From Obelidium mucronatum (lineage: Eukaryota > Chytridiomycota > Chytridiomycetes > Chytridiales > Chytriomycetaceae), in contig JAIVFH010000002.1 in NCBI GenBank assembly GCA_025765595.1, positions 744,001 to 808,000 on the forward strand: a DNA stretch of 64,000 nucleotides, in the 5' to 3' direction. Every line of letters begins with the position of its first letter. Positions within the stretch are counted from its first letter, which is position 1. A model generated the notes under the pieces. The model ran no database searches. It saw only the letters and a program-made list of their open reading frames with translations, and had not been told where the DNA came from. The position numbers were made by a program, and so were the translations under genes. Below, in pieces: positions 5,223 through 25,677 of this stretch.

Positions 5223-6654
5223 ATGCTGGCAACTCATCGTAGCCGCAGGACACGCGCAAAAGTTGAATATCAGGAATCAGAAACGTCAAGCCAAGACGAC
5301 AGTTGCGAAGTGAGTGACTGGGAAAGTGCTTTGGCGACAGTGGTTGTAACTTTTGACACCTGCCTCAAGCGTGCGTCTGGTTGGCAATCATCAAAGAAGA
5401 AGCAAAAGAAAAAACATCGAGCGTTACCAAGTCACATGGAGAATGAAGTACGACTAGTTACATTTGGCCTTGGCCTTTTGAGTTGACATCTCCCCCTTGC
5501 ACAGCAACTACAACCGCCACCAAACGCAGCCGCCCTCTTTCAAATCAAATGTGAATTCATTGCTCAACAAATTCGTTCCTTCTTTGGAAATAACCCAGAC
5601 TTTCTGAACCAAGAGAACTTTGCACTCAAAAGACTGTTTCGAAATCCCAAATACGCCAATTCTGAAGTCTACAAAACCGAGATATTTAATGGAATTAACC
5701 CAGCTGAAGATGAGCACTACGCGTTCAACTTGTGGTTCTTTTGTGTCCTCTCGGAACAAAATAGTCCGGAACGAGTTGCATCCGTGTTTGGCAAGCTTCA
5801 ATACGTGCGCGATTTGGACCAATTATTGGATATATTTGAGACATGGTTTGAAACGGGATTCAAGTGGAAACCAAATATTACGTGTCTGATTGTCTTGTCC
5901 AAGAATGCATGGTTCGACGTGTTGCGGAGCAATTGGGCAATAACACATGGATCCATGCCGTTGAAAATGGAGAAATCGAGTGAAAAGGAAAACGTATTTC
6001 TGAGCAGTTTGGATCTGTTTAGAAACAGTCCAACTCAACGTGGCGTGTTTCAATATTTGAAACGGTTGGTTAACGTTGGTCCATTTCTCGCGTTTCAAGC
6101 ATCAGTAAGATTTTGAATCTATGCACTGCTGTTTTGGATCCTCTAAAATTTTTGAAAACTCAGAATGATGCGGTTACATTCGGAGCTGTGACGCACGACT
6201 TTACTCTATGTGCGCCCTGGAGAAAGCGCGCAGAAATTGCTGCCTCTGTTGGGCTTTCCTCCAACAGAAGAAGGAGCTTCCAACTTTCGCGTGTGCGGTG
6301 AACAAGGAATTGAGTCGGCTCTTGAATAATGGGAATGAAGGTATCCGCGACCTCTACAAAACAAGAGTTAATAATGACGTTGCTCAAGTCAAGACAGAAA
6401 AGTCCAAAGTTTGTTTTGGGTTTACTTCCTTGGACTTTGACTTGATTCTATTATTTAATCCCGATATTTTTTTCCCGAAAAAGGATGGCCTGTCTGATAA
6501 ACCTTCTGACCCGTTTTTCAAATTTATACTTCCGCTGCGCCCAGTTGAAATCGACGAATGCCTTCATAGTTCGAATAAAGTTTTGCTTGGCAACAATGAT
6601 CCGAAAGTGAAAGCTGAGGATGTAAATATGGTTAAGTTAGAGCCGGAGGACTAG
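5223..6654 (+). CDS. Unknown protein with C-terminal sumoylation-type motifs
   Basis: I do not recognise this gene. Exon 1 encodes a short basic/acidic N terminus. An intron with donor GTACGA and acceptor TTGCACAG near 5512 leads to a long exon encoding an alpha-helical protein (NPDFLNQENFALKRLFRNPK, later AFNLWFFCVLSEQ). A second intron begins at 6103 (GTAAGA) and a third at about 6409 (GTTTGT). Between 6230 and 6330 no single frame stays open and joins to the final exon, so there is either another intron or a 1-nt frameshift. The last 15 residues contain two psi-K-x-E motifs (VKAE, VKLE). The next gene is convergent. Confidence 0.5.
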
Positions 6655-11337: not shown

Positions 11338-14300
11338 ATGATAACAACGAGCAAAATGATTGGAAACGAGCAACAAGAAATGCACAAAGCAATTGTGGCA
11401 ATCGACTTTGGGACTTCGGGAACGGGGTTTGTCGACTGGCGCTTCGTATTCTGTTTGGTGTTGACTTGATTCTATCAATATTACATCGCAGAAATCTACC
11501 CAGCAATTCCAGTGCCCAACTAATGCCTTTTCATTGCCTAACCTATATGTTATGCTTGAGCTGTATTCTTCGTAAATTTTTTACTTGTGTGGGTGCAGTC
11601 TTTTGCCTGTGTATTGGGCATAGATTTTTACCCAATGTCGGATCGGTGTTGGATTGAGTGAATCGATCCAATACCGATTAACCTTATTCTTTGAGAAGGG
11701 AAGAAACAATATAGTCCCCACATTCCCTTTTTCCATTTATTCTGTAGTTGATGTGGGTATCTTTCTTATCCAAAACATTGAAGTATTCATCAAATGCATC
11801 ATCCGGGTGTTTTTATTTGATCATCGCAGATCTGGTTGAAAATAGTATATATCGTCCATCAAACCTGTCTTTTTGCAGTCATCAATTCGATGAAAATCTG
11901 GAATCATCATAACTTCTTCTTCTATTTCATCCAAACTGATTAAAGCTTGCGATTCACCCAGCTTCAAATAAGGTCTTCCGTAACGTGTCTTTCTTGCATT
12001 ATCGGCAAACTTGTAATACTGGACAAATGCCGAGCCACCACAAATAGCCCCACGACACTTCTTGATTGTTGAAGCTGACACTAGAGCAATAATTTTTGCA
12101 AACACTTCATCAGATCCATTCAAGTTATTCACAACTTTGATATTGGCAAAGCGAGATTCGTTCTTAAACCATGGGTTGGCAAGGAATCGATGAGTTGAGC
12201 CTGAGGGAATGACAGAGCTATGAAATTTGATCCACCTCAAAGGCTTTCGTTTATCCAAAGCAGAGTTTTCGGTAGATTCAGAGTCTGAGTCACTGTCTGT
12301 TACATCTGAGTCCTCTAAATCGCCTGCTTCATTCAAACGCACTACCAAGCGATCCAATATAGCATCCATATTGCCAAGAGACTTGCAAAGAGTCTCAAGA
12401 TCCAAATTCACCTTTTCCTTTTGTAAATCAAGGTATGCTGTAGATTCCAAAGTCCCAGCTGCTGTTAGTTTCAACGACTGGATAGTTCCAGTTGCATTGT
12501 TTGATTGAGAGATTGGTAGGACAAGCCACGGTTGAATGAAACGATGCCAAGTAGTGTGTTCTTTAACTTCATCTGACTCTTCTGACTCGGAGCCATCCAC
12601 AGCAGAATCCAAACGCGCCAAAATGGATCTCCTTGTTGTCTGATCAGATAGTACAGAAGTGTTATGTTATTAATCAGAGGAACACATAATGCACAACGTA
12701 CAGTGGTGACTAGGCTCTTGATGATATTTTTTTTGTTTGAGTGTCCCCGATAGTCCTGCTTTGGCTCCACATGGCGATTCTCCCACCGGTCCAGAGCCCA
12801 ATTCTTAGGGTTACCAAACAGATAAATGTTATCCACCAAGTGATGCACTGTGTTGTGAAGCTTTGGACTTTGATGGTTGCCCAAGTCATCAAATAATGCA
12901 ATAAATGCATTGCAAAAGGCAACTGTTGATTTGCCCACCAGAAGTCATCAAATAATGCAATAAATGCATTGCAAAAGGCAACTGTTGATTTGCCCACCAG
13001 TTTGACATCGCTCTCAGTCAGCTCTCGCTGACGGCAGATTCTTTGCCACTGCAAATGCGGGAGCATCATTTCTGTAAAAAGCTTGGAGTGCTCATCTAAC
13101 TCCACATGCCGTGTTGTGCAATTAACAACACAATTACAAGAAAACAGCGGGGCAATATATACCTGCAAGTATTCCATGAATCACAAAAACCAAAATAATT
13201 GAAATATTTGCTCGTTCCTTGGATGTCAACAGAGTAGAATCAACAACATTGTTTGACGGCAATCGGAACTTTGGCATGGTTGGTAAACTACGAAATCGCT
13301 TGGAAATGGCAGTTTTCATGGCCATAGCTTTTCGAGAGTACAAACGAGACTTGTCAATGAGCAGCATTGTGTTGTCAAAAATTTGAGCGTTGATTCCTGC
13401 TAAGTCATGCATCATGTGATCTGACACCATACTTTGATATAGTGGAGAAAGTCTGCAAAATTAATTAAGGGGTGATAGGAGAAAAATACATGCAAGTTCA
13501 CACACATAAATCCAGCAAACGCGTTTTCTGTTCCAGTGTTCAAGGAATGTGCACGAATTTTTTTGCTGTCACCACTAATAGCAATTCTATTCATTGCGGC
13601 TTCCGTTCTTGGTCTTAACATGTAGTCATGATCCAACATGTGGTTGTAATCATCCTCCCGGCTGTCAGAATCCATGGCGTCAAGTTCTGGAAATTCTGTC
13701 CAGTGGAAGTACCCTTGGCGAACCATACAATGAATGCATGGAGACGCACCAGTATGACCATTTAACAGGGACATCATATAATGCTCAGGCATGTCCGCAG
13801 GAAAGCATGAGATCCTCGGAACAAAATGTACCAACTCCATTCCCAACCAAATTTTGAATCCATTCAGCTGGTATCGCTTGATTGGTTCCAATAGAATCGT
13901 GAAAGCGGCATGATAGAAATCACGTTTGGTTTTCTTTGATTTTTCAGTCCCAGTTTCAGCTTTACACCACTTGACAAAGGCTTTTGGAACAAATCCAACA
14001 AGAACTTTTGTTTTCCGATTGTGTTTTATAGCTAACGGAAGATTTGATGAAGTCAAATAAATCGGATGTGCACTAGCCTTGTCATTTAGTTGAGTCGCAT
14101 CAGCGTATACTTCAATGGCACTCAATAGTGCATTTGTTGGTAGGCTTTCAACTTGTCGTTTCCACCAGTCGCCAGTATTCATTTCCCCAAAAATACGTTC
14201 CCCCATATTGTCAGTCTTTTGTTCAAATTGAAAGAACATTTCCTTTCCAAATTCATGAATCAGCTCAATTGCAGCATCAACGGTGTTGCGGCATTCAAAT

Positions 14301-17300
14301 GTGACTTTAGTCCCATCGTCTAGAGTCCCAAGCTCATACGTACTAAACTGCCCCACCCCATGAAATTTTTCATGTGAATCAAGTAGTTTCAATCCAGCCT
14401 GAACTGTCTTTGGCAGATCAGAGGGCTTGAAATCAGCAGGCCGTGTATGGAGAAACCTCAGGACATCATTCATTAATCTGTCAGATGCGGATGGATGTTG
14501 TTGAATAAGTTGCATGAAGTCATAGTATGAAATGTTGGGACATGGGTGAAAAGTGGGAACGGAATCTAAAGAGTCAAGGGACTGTAGCATCAGCGGGCTG
14601 AAATTAATAGCACTCATAGTGCTGTGTTGAATAATTGGAACTGTTTTTGTTGAAGAGTTTGAGGCTGTTTCTGAAACTGGAGGGCCTGGGTCTTCGGGAG
14701 CTATGTGCAAAGGATCGGATTGGGGACAGTAAGTTCCTGAGGTGGCCTGGTTGATTGTTGGACAAGATGTATCAATGCTGGTTGCACCAACGTCAAAGTC
14801 AGCATCATCTTGAGTGTTAGGCATCACAGTGCTTGAAACAATAGCTGAGCTTGATGATTGTGTGACAGTTGCTGCCGGCGCTGGACCTGGGGGTGAAGTA
14901 GTCCTTTTCCGTTTCAAGAGCTGGCCAGTTGCAGTCAATGCAACTGCAGCTGCAGCAGTTGCTTTCTTTTTATGAGATGCGCTCTTCTTGTGGAACATAA
15001 AGGCACTGTTTGTAGCAAAAACAAAGCCTGGGCGACATAGACGACATTCGTTTGTTGATTCCATGTTTGTTTCAAAGATAAAAAATGTCGCAAATTGAAG
15101 AAGTCGACCACATACTCAACGATTTCCAGGGCTTTGTTGATGGTAGCTATGCCTGACATCCCCGTTCTGATCCTAAATCAAAAATTACAGCATCTGATAC
15201 CCAAAGTCAAACTCTCATGGATTCAAGTGATCCAGTAGCCCATTTAATTCAAATTGAAGACCAAAACAGCTTGACACATTCTCTCTTGCTCCAGCAATTA
15301 CAGTTTGCAAATTCGCTCAGGCAACAAAATAGAGAAATCTTGGAGCTGCTTAGAGAAGCTGCGATGCAAGCCCCCATTGTGCACCCCCTTAGTTGGACAT
15401 CGTTGGGTGTAATACATGATGATCATTTGACATTCTTGAATATTAAATATGAGCTTTATAGACTTCGATCAAGCCAACCATTCTCAATGAAGCCCATGCC
15501 AGAGTTTATATGGACTGTTCGGAAATTGACACATGCTTAACCAACTGGATGAATAACCAAACGCCCTCATTTAAAGAATCAGTGGGTATTGCAGCTTTGG
15601 GTGCAATGGAGTTATTCATCACCAAATGTAATTCGGAGGTATGCTTATATCATTTCGCTTCGTCACTCACCAAAAAACACATCAAAAAGGCCCTCGAGAT
15701 TGTTCGAACCAACCGTGAAAATATAATGAGCAAAATTAAGACCATTGTCAGATCAAACAAAGCCGGTGGATATAGTATTGCAATCAAATACAATCTAACA
15801 AAGGCAGAAACTTCTGAGCTGTTGGCTTGGAAGAATGACCCTTGTGTGATGCGGGCCTTGAAGGAGCTTGTTACCGAACGGGACACCAACCCGGCACCCA
15901 TGGCTACTTTCTTAACTGCTTGCCACCATGGGCCAACGTCATCAAGGAAGGAGTATTCCCCAAAAGAGCGCGCGTTCTTGTTTGCTGGACTTTCTCAATA
16001 TCTGTCTGGCCTTGACATGCAAAATGAGTCAGAGGTCAAAAGATTGATGAGGGTTTTTGAAGAAAACCCAACTGAGCCTGCAGCAACTGCTGCAGCAACG
16101 CCCAATCGAAACCGTGGCATTAGTAGCGAAACTCGTACTAGAGCGACTGGAGCAGTTGTGCGCGTTCCGTATGTCCGTGGTGGGTTTCGAGGACGTCTTG
16201 GTGCAACAAGTGGAAGTGGTGGAAGTGGTGGAAGTAGTGGAAGTAGAGGCGCCGCTGCAAGTGGAAGTGGCTGATGAAAACAGATCCATTATGCCCTTAT
16301 GATATCCTTTGTATTGAAAAATAAAAATATTCCAAAACCCAAAAAATAAACCCATTGAACCATCCAAAACGGACAGGTATGTTGAATCCATCCAATACGG
16401 ACAAGAATCGCGCAGTCAAAACCCATCGAACCATCCAAAACGGACAGGTATGTTGAATCCATCCAATACGGACAAGAATCGCGCAGTCAAAACCCATCGA
16501 ACCATCCAAAACGGACAGGTATGTTGAATCCATCCAATACGGACAAGAATCGCGCAGTCAAAACCCATGGATAACCATGGGAATGGAATGTAGGTGCTGA
16601 CTGAGGTTTATTTTTTCATATGTAATAATGCTTATTAATAAAATGATGGTTGCATAACTCACATTCCACTGCATTACAATTCCGGAATATGCAATCATCA
16701 GTAGAATGTCCTGGAATGCAACAGTGCGTGCAAGATCGTTCCTTTAATACCTTAGAGTTCTCCCGGTCTTGACACTGGTCCTTTTCACATCCAGAATATC
16801 GGCACACAACTCGACAAGTCTCACGTTGGTGGTGAAGATAAATATCCAATCTTGTGTCACAGTGCTGGCACTTGAGGTTTTTGCCGTTTGAGCGAGCTTC
16901 TTTTTGACGTGCCAAATACACGTGCCAAGTATTCAGTACTCTTGCAACAGACACATTGGATTCAGGCACAGGTGGCGGTGAAACAGGCAGACCTGAGTCG
17001 GCATTGTTGTCGAGCACTATTATTTTGTTAAATATAACATGTCAAAAGAAAGGAAACACCGCCATAGGCTGTTCGATGACTTGATGAAAGAAAATAGCCG
17101 TCTTCCCAATAACACACTGCCTTTGGCAGTAAGACATTGCCTTCGACAAGAGATGAGAGTTTAGGACTAAAAGAACACACCTGGAGCACTCCAAAACTCT
17201 TTACGCAGGCAGTCTGCATTGAAAGGGACATCTTCCTCGTCGTCGAAGCCTTCCTCTGGATGCAAGACCTCGTCTTCGCTTTCGTATTCATCGTATTCAT

Positions 17301-20300
17301 CTGCGGTGTTCTATTTAAATTGCCATCGTGTTAGATTGTTGGTTCAAAATATCACTGTTCTACCTCGGACACAGCTCCAAGCTGGTTTAATGGGATCCCT
17401 GCATCCAAGTCCTCTTTGTCAAGAGTTTCTTCAAGCGGCTTTTCGTATTTGACAATGACCGCTGCGAGACGGAACTGAAAATTACTCATTTTATCTTGTT
17501 TTTTTCTTGTTTTTTATTTCCCGCCTTTTTAAGAAACAACACTTTGCTTGGTTTTTATATAATATTCACTAAGCTCTCAAAATAGCAATGCCCAGAAAGC
17601 GCCACACGCCCAAGAAACTGACTGCTGCCGCTCAAGCTAATCAATCGCACACCTCGGTCAAATCCCGCAACGGTCGAAGTTCTAAACCAGACGCCAAAAA
17701 GTTGGCTTTAGTTGGCAAGCAAGGACCATTTCGTGCTCTTCGCGAAATTCAGAAATACCAGAAAATGGATGGCCGGCTGATTTTAAAAGCGCCATTTGAG
17801 CGTCTGGCAAGTTCCGCGGGTTTTTTATTGTTACTGCGAACCATTCCTGGTCTAACAATGCTTCATTAGATTCGTCAGATTACTTTCGAGCAGTTTGGCA
17901 ACGACTGCGGCCTTCGATTTGCAGCGAACGCGCTTCTCTGCATTCAAGATGCGTCGGAAGCATACCTTGTCACACTAATGGAAGATGCATATCGCCTTGC
18001 CATTCATGCAAGACGCGTAACTCTTTTTAAGGAGGATATTCAGCTTGTGATTTCTCTGCGGCGCCACTATATGCCTTCAAATCACTCTGGCTTGCAACCT
18101 GTGTGTCCCTCGCATGACAATCTGAATGTTTCCAGCTTGACGGACAAGTTTGTTCCTACCAATCCAAACAAACGCAAGCAACTGATTACAGCAGACGAAC
18201 GCGCCGAGGATGAGGACGATTTGGATCCTAACGATGGAGAGTTTATTCCGGGACAGAGACTGAAGCGTCGCTGTGTTGCCACTAAGAATCGCAAAGAAAA
18301 CCGGGGTCCAGCGTTGGCTGCATAATTTGCTCTGAATAAAAACATCTGATTTTATTATAAAAATTGGAAATATTTAAATCGACGTGGAAATTTGAAAACG
18401 TGGTTTTTTCTTTGTCAAAACTAACTACAACAAGCTTGCTATTTGAAACACAAGAGTGTCTCACAACAAGTAAGTGCTCTTTCAACTGACGCTGCTGCTC
18501 TATTTGACTATTTGATCATTGAAAGGATGCTATTAGTATTTCAACAATTTGCCGTTGCACTTTGATCTACGTAGTGCGGTATGTTCTCAAGACCATTTAC
18601 GACCAACACTTCAATTTTAACAATTCTGATCAATTGATACAGACAGCAATGTTGCAAGTGTGTGGATCTCTGTCTACCTGAGATTTCAAACGATGAGTTG
18701 ATTTTTCCTTCCCCAACAAACTATCCATCCACTATTGAACTGAATCCCTTCTGATTTTTTTTTGAGCAGTGCTCCGTCTGTGTCGGGTACTTTATTTCAA
18801 AGCTTTTACATGTTGGTCTCAATTGTGTCCTCTTGGTTGCTCCCTTGTTTTTTGTCGATGGCATCATCATAGTATTGATTTTTTGTCTATTTATCAGGTT
18901 GCTGATTTCCTTTCTTTGCCATTGTATCGACAAAATATCTGTATTATTCTGTAAGTGTTTCTGATTTGGCAGTGTCATATCTATTCCCTTGCTATGTGTG
19001 GACTCCGGCGTAGGGGGCACGGCGGCGACATTGGGCACGCCGCCGGCTTGGCAGGTCACGTTGGAGTCCTCTGGCAGTCATGTTTATTATAACTTTCTAA
19101 ATCTTCTCTATTGACGTCAGGTCCCTGTCATCCCGCTCCCGTGTCAAGCCCTCGCGTCGCCTCGCTACCCCACATGTCCAACCCTAAGAGTTACGACACT
19201 ATGCAATCATTTGGAAATAGATCTCTGAACAGCACCTTGTTTCTGCCGATTGTAAAATCCAGTATGGTACACTAACCTGCGTGCATCAGGCGTTGATTCC
19301 ATGGGTCTCAAGTGTATTGCTGGCCAGGCTGTGGTTTTTTTTTTGAATGATTTGTTGACAACAATAAAGGCTTATGCGCATCATTTTGAATTCCGAAACT
19401 ATCTGTTGACCTGCCGTTGGCTGTTGTTGGTTTTCTCCACCAAATTAACATTGTTTTATTGTGTCGGGATTTTGTTGTTCAGAGAGACTATTTCCGCATA
19501 TAAATGCTGTAACGGAACTTTGCAGTTTTGATCTGTTTGGCTTGGCACCGCTACTTGCTTCCTAACAGCATTGCATGGAAACCTTGAATGAGCGTTTGTG
19601 ATTGGTTCTGAGGACTCACTGTCTTAAAATACTTTTAACAAGTTTTATTTTGAAACAACATTTGTCTACTTTGCAAATGTTGATCCGGTATTGGATATCT
19701 TGCCAGAAAAAGCACCACCGAGCAATGCCCTCCAAAGATTGGTGATTCACGTCTGCAGTATTCTGGCACCTGAATCACCCAATGTGTTGCCTCTCTGTTT
19801 AACATCGGCATTGTTTCCAAACTCTCATCCAATGGCAGACACCTGACAACGTCATCGAACTTGCCCGATGGTCCGAGAGAACAAAATTAAACAGCACAGC
19901 ATTGGTTACAGGTTGACATTCTAAACCAGAATTCTGTCTCACATCCCTGCCTCAAACACCTAGCATGTTCAGACTGGACACTGACATTTGGTGCTGCACC
20001 CACATCCCTCCTGATTGGTCTTGGGTCCATGCTTGATCAGACATCGGTATTGCATCAACTATAAACTCAGTATTGCCACCAAGACGGCTGGGTAGATTTC
20101 TGCGATGTACCCTGCTGTAGCTACGCCTGCGCCTTCACAAACCCAAACCGCCAGCTACAACCCGCTACAGAAGTCTTTAAAAACAGGTGCTGAGTGGAAA
20201 ATGTGTCATTGCGGCAACTCTTTTGAGTAATCTTTCTCTGTCCTTTTCCGGGTTTTTCTTTTTTTTCAGACCATGGGCATACACAGACCAAGGAAAAACC

Positions 20301-24702: not shown

Positions 24703-24705
<3 letters not shown>
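24690..24705 (-). other. Hairpin at the H3 stop codon
   Basis: On the H3 strand, TGATTT-CATT-AAATCA: a 6-bp stem with a 4-nt loop that starts at the TGA stop codon itself. It has the size, but not the sequence, of the metazoan histone mRNA stem-loop. Confidence 0.4.

Positions 24706-25677
<972 letters not shown>

Follow-up and report, generated by a model that had tools for sequence, protein, structure and literature searches.

A CENP-A-like histone gene, a linked partner gene, and a repeat array recur as a cassette in DNA transposons of Obelidium mucronatum

Introduction

Why would a DNA transposon carry a histone of the centromeric type? The question is raised by a window of 64,000 nucleotides from the chytrid Obelidium mucronatum (contig JAIVFH010000002.1, C2:744001-808000 in the contig names used here), the one genome that we analyzed. 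A preliminary description of this window, which is the whole stretch of DNA under study, had placed a CENP-A-like histone gene at 17588..18325, between inverted repeats and in one unit with a transposase. Here, we report that the histone gene is indeed carried by a DNA transposon, element A, and that it recurs in other copies and in other element families. It does so as part of a cassette composed of tandem repeats, a partner gene rich in cysteine and histidine (Cys/His), and the histone gene lying head to head with the partner. We tentatively propose, from sequence comparisons, that this is an element-encoded chromatin cassette in which the partner may place CenH3-type nucleosomes on the element's own repeats; the proposal seems to us plausible but stops well short of being established.

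Results

A Plavaka-type transposon carries a histone gene with CENP-A hallmarks

Element A is a Plavaka-type DNA transposon of 8624 bp (11484..20107), defined by its terminal inverted repeats (TIRs), target-site duplication (TSD), and transposase. The open reading frames (ORFs) and coordinates of the histone gene were as previously noted, and the gene does lie between perfect inverted repeats. Their described length of 23 bp needs correction: each consists of a 21-bp TIR (CATCGCAGAAATCTACCCAGC; left, 11484..11504, plus strand; right, 20087..20107, minus strand) plus a 2-bp TA TSD (11482..11483 and 20108..20109). The shorter length is corroborated by the copy on C10, which has the same 21-bp TIRs but the TSD AT. 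The two TIRs are the sole inverted pair of at least 18 nt reported between 10000 and 26000 (seed 12), and the same sequence is perfect at both ends of the C10 copy and at one end each on C202 and C33. The transposase in the same unit is a Plavaka ORF (13412..15064, minus strand; PF18759, E=6.4e-21). The element's termini, CATCG..CGATG, compare with CATCA..TGATG and a 2-3 bp TSD in the cited passages on PlavakaB (PMC12730594).

The spliced product of the histone gene has 224 residues and a full H3-type fold (PF00125, E=3.4e-26). Exon 1 (17588..17806, plus strand) encodes the N tail, alpha-N, and the start of alpha-1, and exon 2 (17870..18325, plus strand) encodes a long loop 1, alpha-2, alpha-3, and a C-terminal extension of about 85 residues. 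Between them lies a phase-0 GC-AG intron of 63 nt (17807..17869, plus strand), at the position of the intron in the CENP-A-like genes on C209 and C55 described below. This splice model is our own; P0001, the protein deposited for the C10 copy, is spliced differently, the deposited family C histone (P0008, C62 contig) has its intron at the modelled place, and protein searches returned no deposited protein for the window histone itself.

CENP-A proteins have a loop 1 longer than that of H3 and Ala, Cys, or Ser at the equivalent of H3 Thr107. Counted on a single alignment, loop 1 exceeds that of H3 by 3 residues in the histones of families A and B, 10 in family C, and 7 in C209. The Thr of the H3 motif EDT is replaced by Ala (EDA) in A, B, and the C20 histone, while the C36 histone keeps EDT, and the window histone has EDAYRLAIHARRVTLF. 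The full fold and the CENP-A hallmarks that had been ascribed to this gene thus hold. At the position of H3 Phe84, where Trp is common in CENP-As but not universal, A and B have Phe and the host CENP-A-like gene has Leu. The element histones resemble CENP-A/CenH3 in the longer loop 1, the EDT-to-EDA change (A, B, and C20), the divergent tail, and the intron position; the element A histone differs from it by its C-terminal extension, the loop-1 Phe, and its location in a mobile element.

The partner gene is transcribed away from the histone gene across a gap of 98 bp (17490..17587) and is modelled with three exons on the minus strand. Exon 1 (17364..17489) contains the MSNFQFRLAAVIVKYE stretch, exon 2 (17181..17310) an acidic stretch and the motif KEFW.AP, and exon 3 (16615..17016) the Cys/His-rich region. 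The deposited protein P0003 agrees with the first two exons and diverges from our ORF model near the end of the third. Behind the partner lies the tandem array (16348..16568, plus strand), with 3.1 units of 71 bp, each full unit holding two CCATCCAAWACGGAC half-sites 28 bp apart.

The cassette recurs in three element families with two transposase classes

Other histone-bearing copies, for which the preliminary description had proposed a search, exist both in the same family and beyond it. Three families have two end-defined copies each: Plavaka A (window and C10), Plavaka C (C20 and C62), and B (C45 and C15). Within family A, the exon-2 piece of the window histone is matched with 93% identity on C202, 87% on C10, and 78% on C678; the family B copies on C45 and C15 match it with 49% and 46%. 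The C10 copy (C10:143022-147586) has both 21-bp TIRs and the TSD AT but lacks most of the transposase part, the C202 copy shows one TIR within the stretch read, C678 is a fragment, and the match on C33 runs only up to position 5380 and lacks the histone.

Family B (C45:207259-218946 and C15:372877-384555) has a related histone, partner, and array and a different transposase, with an integrase core (rva_4, E=4.7e-43). Its TSD is TCCAAC on both sides at C45 and GAACAG/GAACGG (5/6) at C15, and its TIRs are about 30 bp long, with 26 bp perfect and two mismatches in the outer four. The termini, TATGG..CGGTA, are one right-end base off those given for IS3EU in the cited passages (TAYGG..CCRTA, 6-bp TSD, TIR over 30 bp; PMC12730594); apart from this base and a TIR length that does not clearly exceed 30 bp, element B resembles the IS3EU description. 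A further B piece on C313 has partner, array, and integrase. In family C (C20:239497-246374, TSD AC; C62:96376-103336, TSD TT), the ends are CATCA..TGATG and the transposase is again Plavaka (PF18759, E=2.1e-26), and the 2-bp TSDs of the Plavaka A and C copies are accordingly TA, AT, AC, and TT. C-type histones occur at eight places, being open at C20, C62, and C36 and interrupted by a stop in the fold at C10:196928 and C221; the others are on C6, C85, and C112.

A fourth setting, on C35, combines a histone variant (V_C35, whose N tail shows a frame change as read) with a relative of the partner; its ends were not found, and it is not counted as an element. Near V_C35 lies a SET-domain gene (C35:36811-37881; PF00856, E=2.3e-8), possibly a further epigenetic cargo, with similar sequence at C75, C54, C16, C31, and C41.

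The partner adjoins the histone in A, B, C, and C35 alike. This linkage bears on the suggestion that the variant is a decoy, as which it would compete with host CENP-A or upset the host's nucleosomes or silencing. Such interference would fit the presence of several divergent histone copies in the genome and the fact that the SET-domain gene beside V_C35 is itself repeated, but it leaves the repeat array and the linked partner unexplained, and we consider it decidedly improbable.

Searches of proteins with the partner gave 5 hits, all from Obelidium, and those with the histone yielded 2 and 29 proteins, with three Obelidium entries in the larger set. Among the 13 histone-search proteins that we examined, no further cassette-type histone from outside Obelidium was found; these searches depend on shared 5-residue words and on predicted proteins. 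One protein, the metagenomic P0002 (372 amino acids), appears to be a fusion of several histone folds, and LKAPFE is common to its H3 part and the element histone. It presumably resembles the fused histones of large viruses. Separately, a divergent H3-type exon 2 with the tail motif LPSN lies at C73:23942-24259, with pieces resembling the A transposase about 16 kb off on the same contig.

Elements with different transposases have a repeat motif in common

The arrays beside the partner have units of 71 bp in A, 70-81 bp in B, and 46/92 bp in C and are 110-663 bp long in the copies measured. A 139-bp repeat array also lies on C118, 1.6 kb from a partner relative, and matching sequence adjoins the partner relative on C35. 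The A and B repeat units align with a score of 30.5, compared with a maximum of 3.5 in 2000 shuffles, and a 15-bp motif is kept between them though silent sites are near saturation. Genome-wide, CCATCCAAWACGGAC has 38 hits, compared with 0 for a reversed control, and 34 of them are in A/B-type element sequence (6 on C2, 10 on C10, 7 on C15, 1 on C33, 4 on C45, 4 on C202, and 2 on C313). A longer-spacer form of the motif, allowing at most 1 mismatch, gave 15 matches, 8 of which are in B-type arrays (C15, C45, and C313), and 1 in the control. Since the A and B transposases differ, the array appears to travel with the cassette. The repeats might have been subterminal binding sites of the transposase, an explanation that is disfavored by the occurrence of one motif in elements with different transposases.

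Single repeat-like units, with half-sites about 28 bp apart, also lie in inverted orientation about 6.2 kb apart at C305:10530/16722 and C652:600/6770. No cassette gene was recognized in the 2 kb read at C305; these sites perhaps belong to another element that is recognized by the cassette or mimics its sites.

The partner has a conserved Cys/His region and a helix-like N-terminal stretch

Five partner relatives share 26 invariant columns, among them 12 Cys and 4 His, in an alignment in which two members are 90% alike and the gene models were joined by us. Like Scm3/HJURP, the partner has an N-terminal helix-like stretch followed by acidic residues; unlike them, it has a Cys/His-rich C-terminal region and gives no Pfam Scm3 match. 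Scanned up to E=10, neither the A partner, whole or as its N-terminal part, nor a B fragment matched the Scm3 domain (PF10384), and a six-frame genome search with PF10384, again up to E=10, returned only the host gene at 146 kb on C35. In a comparison with the helix of that host Scm3, a 13-mer of the partner's N-terminal stretch reached rank 8 among 130,299, outscored by the four query helices themselves and by three more. The likeness is strong for the C20 and C35 partners (19 and 24) and weak for those of A and B (7 and 2). As the comparison was chosen after looking at the sequences and profiles detect no Scm3 domain, we treat the likeness as a lead only.

The A-B comparison indicates constraint on histone and partner

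Between A and B, the histone fold is identical at 68 of 93 positions, with a ratio of nonsynonymous to synonymous divergence (dN/dS) of 0.10 (0.05-0.23; dS was finite in 813 of 1000 resamples, on which this interval is based). The ratio is 0.30 for the N tail, 0.41 for the C tail, and 0.23 for the whole histone; with dS at 1.4-1.9, these values are rough. The partners are identical at 117 of 204 positions, and at 75 of 105 in the Cys/His region, with a dN of 0.38 and saturated silent sites (proportion of silent differences, pS, 0.78). Recurrence and constraint together rule out a chance ORF.

The host has its own CENP-A-like gene, and the intron points to a CENP-A-side origin

As an alternative, the preliminary description had considered that the CENP-A gene captured by the element was the only one in the host. 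The second CENP-A that this idea made it worthwhile to look for is present: a CENP-A-like gene lies on C209 and C55, in sequences 93% alike over 3.2 kb, and several element copies carry the histone. We therefore reject capture of a sole host CENP-A from a conserved locus, to which we would give next to no chance. The best match of the C209/C55 product in the PDB is Schizosaccharomyces pombe Cnp1 (156.1 bits), and because H3 chains score nearly as high (154.8 bits), calling it CENP-A-like rests mainly on its loop 1 (+7 relative to H3). The genome also has an Scm3 match (C35:146398; 28.9 bits, cut-off 24.3) and a CENP-C match on C525 and C8 (33 of 85 positions; 30.5 bits, cut-off 29). The CENP-C profile gives a below-cut-off signal in 4 of 14 prokaryote controls as well, and CENP-C is weaker evidence than the Scm3 and CENP-A-like matches.

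A phase-0 intron occupies a common position in the histones of A, B, and C, in the variants V_C35 and V_C28, and in C209 and C55 (PFERL|IRQI in A and PFARV|VREI in C209). All seven H3 genes tested lack this intron; the copy on C465 was left out of the test. The C15 and C45 histone introns differ in length by one base, that of C15 being the shorter, yet in both genes the exons remain open, an argument for genuine splicing. Because the intron position is shared with C209/C55 and lacking in the H3 genes tested, the element histones probably descend from the CENP-A side. Origin as an H3 retrocopy is unlikely, since the intron is present.

Trees of the H3 family, a check likewise proposed in the preliminary description, did not decide the matter. 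A and B form one group (100/100), which joins V_C35 with 88/92 in the row set without P0002, V_C28, and two C rows. With the C rows in and P0002 and V_C28 out, no neighbor of A/B is resolved; with P0002 in, A/B, V_C35, V_C28, and P0002 come together at 95/92, on a very long P0002 branch. In the approximately unbiased (AU) test, made on the first of these row sets, placement of A/B with CENP-As (p 0.205), with the host CENP-A-like gene (0.202), and with H3s (0.22) all stood unrejected. The C histones sit on a very long branch, and no tree fixes them. The AlphaFold model of the C histone P0008 is modest (predicted local distance difference test score, pLDDT, 67.8). For this model, Foldseek ranked H3 chains first (E 5e-5, TM-score to query 0.44) and put a chimera of H3 and the CENP-A targeting domain at rank 15, so that H3 and CENP-A are not separated. 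The histone fold carries little tree signal.

Short arrays and an insertion within a gene bear on a centromeric role

Element A is inserted within an HSP70-like gene, perhaps in an intron: the left flank (about 11380-11480) encodes an HSP70 N-terminal-like piece, AIVAIDFGTSGTGF, parted from the rest of the HSP70-like protein in the right flank (from about 20270; PF00012, E=1.1e-5). It had been suggested that the histone helps the element pick its sites. This idea found no support, as the window copy sits inside this gene and the TSDs share no sequence.

The insertion also bears on whether the cassette is a mobile centromere kit. In such a kit, CENP-A-type chromatin would be seeded on the repeats by the element's own CENP-A-type histone and a dedicated loader and would recruit kinetochore parts, biasing transmission of the element or its chromosome. 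This role would suit the intron position in common with the CENP-A-like gene, a partner that might be a chaperone, and repeats that look like iterated sites, as well as a host equipped with a CENP-A-like gene, an Scm3 match that exceeds the cut-off, and a short CENP-C match that barely does. Set against them are arrays of only 110 to 663 bp, the location of the only annotated insertion site inside an HSP70-like gene, the harm expected from several active centromeres per chromosome, and the Phe that A and B keep where many CENP-As have Trp. On balance we think a selfish centromere or partition function quite unlikely. An anti-silencing role seems likelier than a centromeric one, because the arrays are short and the one annotated site lies inside a gene.

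Other features of element A and its surroundings

Further ORFs on the transposase strand (11821..13177, minus) are probably later transposase exons; the 2 ORFs scanned there gave no transposase match and one sub-threshold PHO4 hit. A perfect 59-bp tandem duplication at 12883-13000, among these ORFs, possibly disables the transposase. Two overlapping ORFs at 15217..16274 (plus strand), perhaps a single gene, make up the second gene of element A and have no Pfam match. About 4.6 kb from the element is an ordinary intronless histone H3 gene (24703-25113), and six more full-length H3 places in the genome scored like it.

Discussion

How might the cassette work? The element encodes a divergent H3 variant, probably CenH3-derived. 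Facing the gene for this variant is that for the partner, a protein with a helix-like stretch at its N terminus, a run of acidic residues, and a C-terminal region rich in Cys and His. Direct repeats form an array next to the partner gene. We propose that the partner could combine the tasks of a histone chaperone and a targeting factor. The Cys/His region, putatively binding both zinc and DNA, would recognize the half-sites conserved in the repeats, and the N-terminal part would load the variant histone, together with host H4, on the array. The special nucleosomes so formed may leave the element accessible for expression of its own genes and shield it from silencing by the host, a presumed anti-silencing benefit. 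That the three parts form a working module is suggested by their continued linkage across two transposase classes.

Several observations weigh against this proposal. The partner offers little to compare: the A partner has no Pfam domain up to E=10, the B partner fragment has only a weak Sorb hit (E=0.33), the five-partner profile has no PDB match up to E=10, and the AlphaFold model is of low confidence (pLDDT 34). The stretches of C and C35 that were scanned did not contain the A/B motif, and 4 of the 38 CCATCCAAWACGGAC hits are in C305/C652, with no histone or partner match. Histone matches occur in only 3 of 31 Plavaka loci, a lower bound obtained by our own grouping of 42 matches, and the cassette is therefore an accessory of Plavaka elements. 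The family A histone on C10 is broken by stops and a frameshift. Recent histone pairs have dN/dS values of 0.67 (A/A), 0.65 (B/B), and 1.29 (C/C), and the A/A partner pair has 0.70, all with intervals that include 1; by this measure, constraint on recent copies is indistinguishable from neutrality, as for decaying copies. The A-B constraint could partly predate two separate captures.

The last points bring up passive transduplication, in which a captured pair of host CenH3-type genes is carried without function. Recent copies decay as if neutral, and there is precedent in the H3 genes borne by hAT elements, as far as the cited passages describe them (PMC3538342 and PMC6710886). Mere carriage does not readily explain the A-B constraint on histone fold and partner at near-saturated silent sites, the conserved noncoding motif, or the persistence of three parts together in two transposase classes, and we regard it as somewhat unlikely. 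A different role would lie in transposition itself, with histone and partner acting in the transposition complex or opening target chromatin. The occurrence of the cassette with two transposase classes is compatible with this, but no histone is reported at 28 of the 31 Plavaka loci, where it would be dispensable, making such a role unlikely.

The preliminary description held that a mobile element with a centromeric-type histone was undescribed. As a statement about H3-like histones this does not stand, since they have been published in hAT transposons. According to the cited passages, a hAT element of Pyrenophora tritici-repentis carries an H3-like gene (H3L) and a central ORF between its TIRs, with expressed sequence tags; H3L was assigned to neither H3 nor CenH3, and 26 copies of the element are nearly identical (PMC3538342). 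A hAT-captured H3 in Pseudocercospora fijiensis and allies is described as intronless, its copies inactivated by repeat-induced point mutation (RIP) (PMC6710886). The narrower claim fares better: among the matches listed from the transposon-histone literature, we found no transposon-borne CenH3, nor one with a partner and an array. The hAT-H3L elements resemble ours in having an H3-type gene between the TIRs of a fungal DNA transposon. They differ in transposase, which is hAT there and Plavaka and rva_4 (IS3EU-like) here, and the cited passages show no tandem array or linked Cys/His-rich partner, both present here. The intron of the CENP-A-like gene, the two transposase classes, and the A-B constraint further set the present elements apart.

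A second precedent concerns cargo rather than histones. Genes of the TET/JBP family are carried by many fungal transposon lineages, including Plavaka and IS3EU (PMC12730594), and there, too, epigenetic cargo is common to several lineages, with PlavakaB termini and 2-3 bp TSDs and an IS3EU TSD of 6 bp similar to those found here. That cargo is a DNA dioxygenase, and no histone or partner/array cassette appears in the passages cited. From these sources, it is already known that transposons can carry H3 and that different lineages can have epigenetic cargo in common.

What the cassette may add concerns the means by which transposons deal with chromatin. Enzymes believed to remove DNA methylation or to write histone marks are part of the cargo of some transposons, according to the passages cited (PMC12730594). 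If our proposal is true, this element lineage would bring along a component of nucleosomes, a partner protein linked to it, and a candidate site for its loading, and would thereby add to the means by which chromatin is combated or exploited. As a minimal and portable unit, the cassette would also allow one to ask how a histone variant is directed to a specific DNA sequence, a question that CENP-A poses as well.

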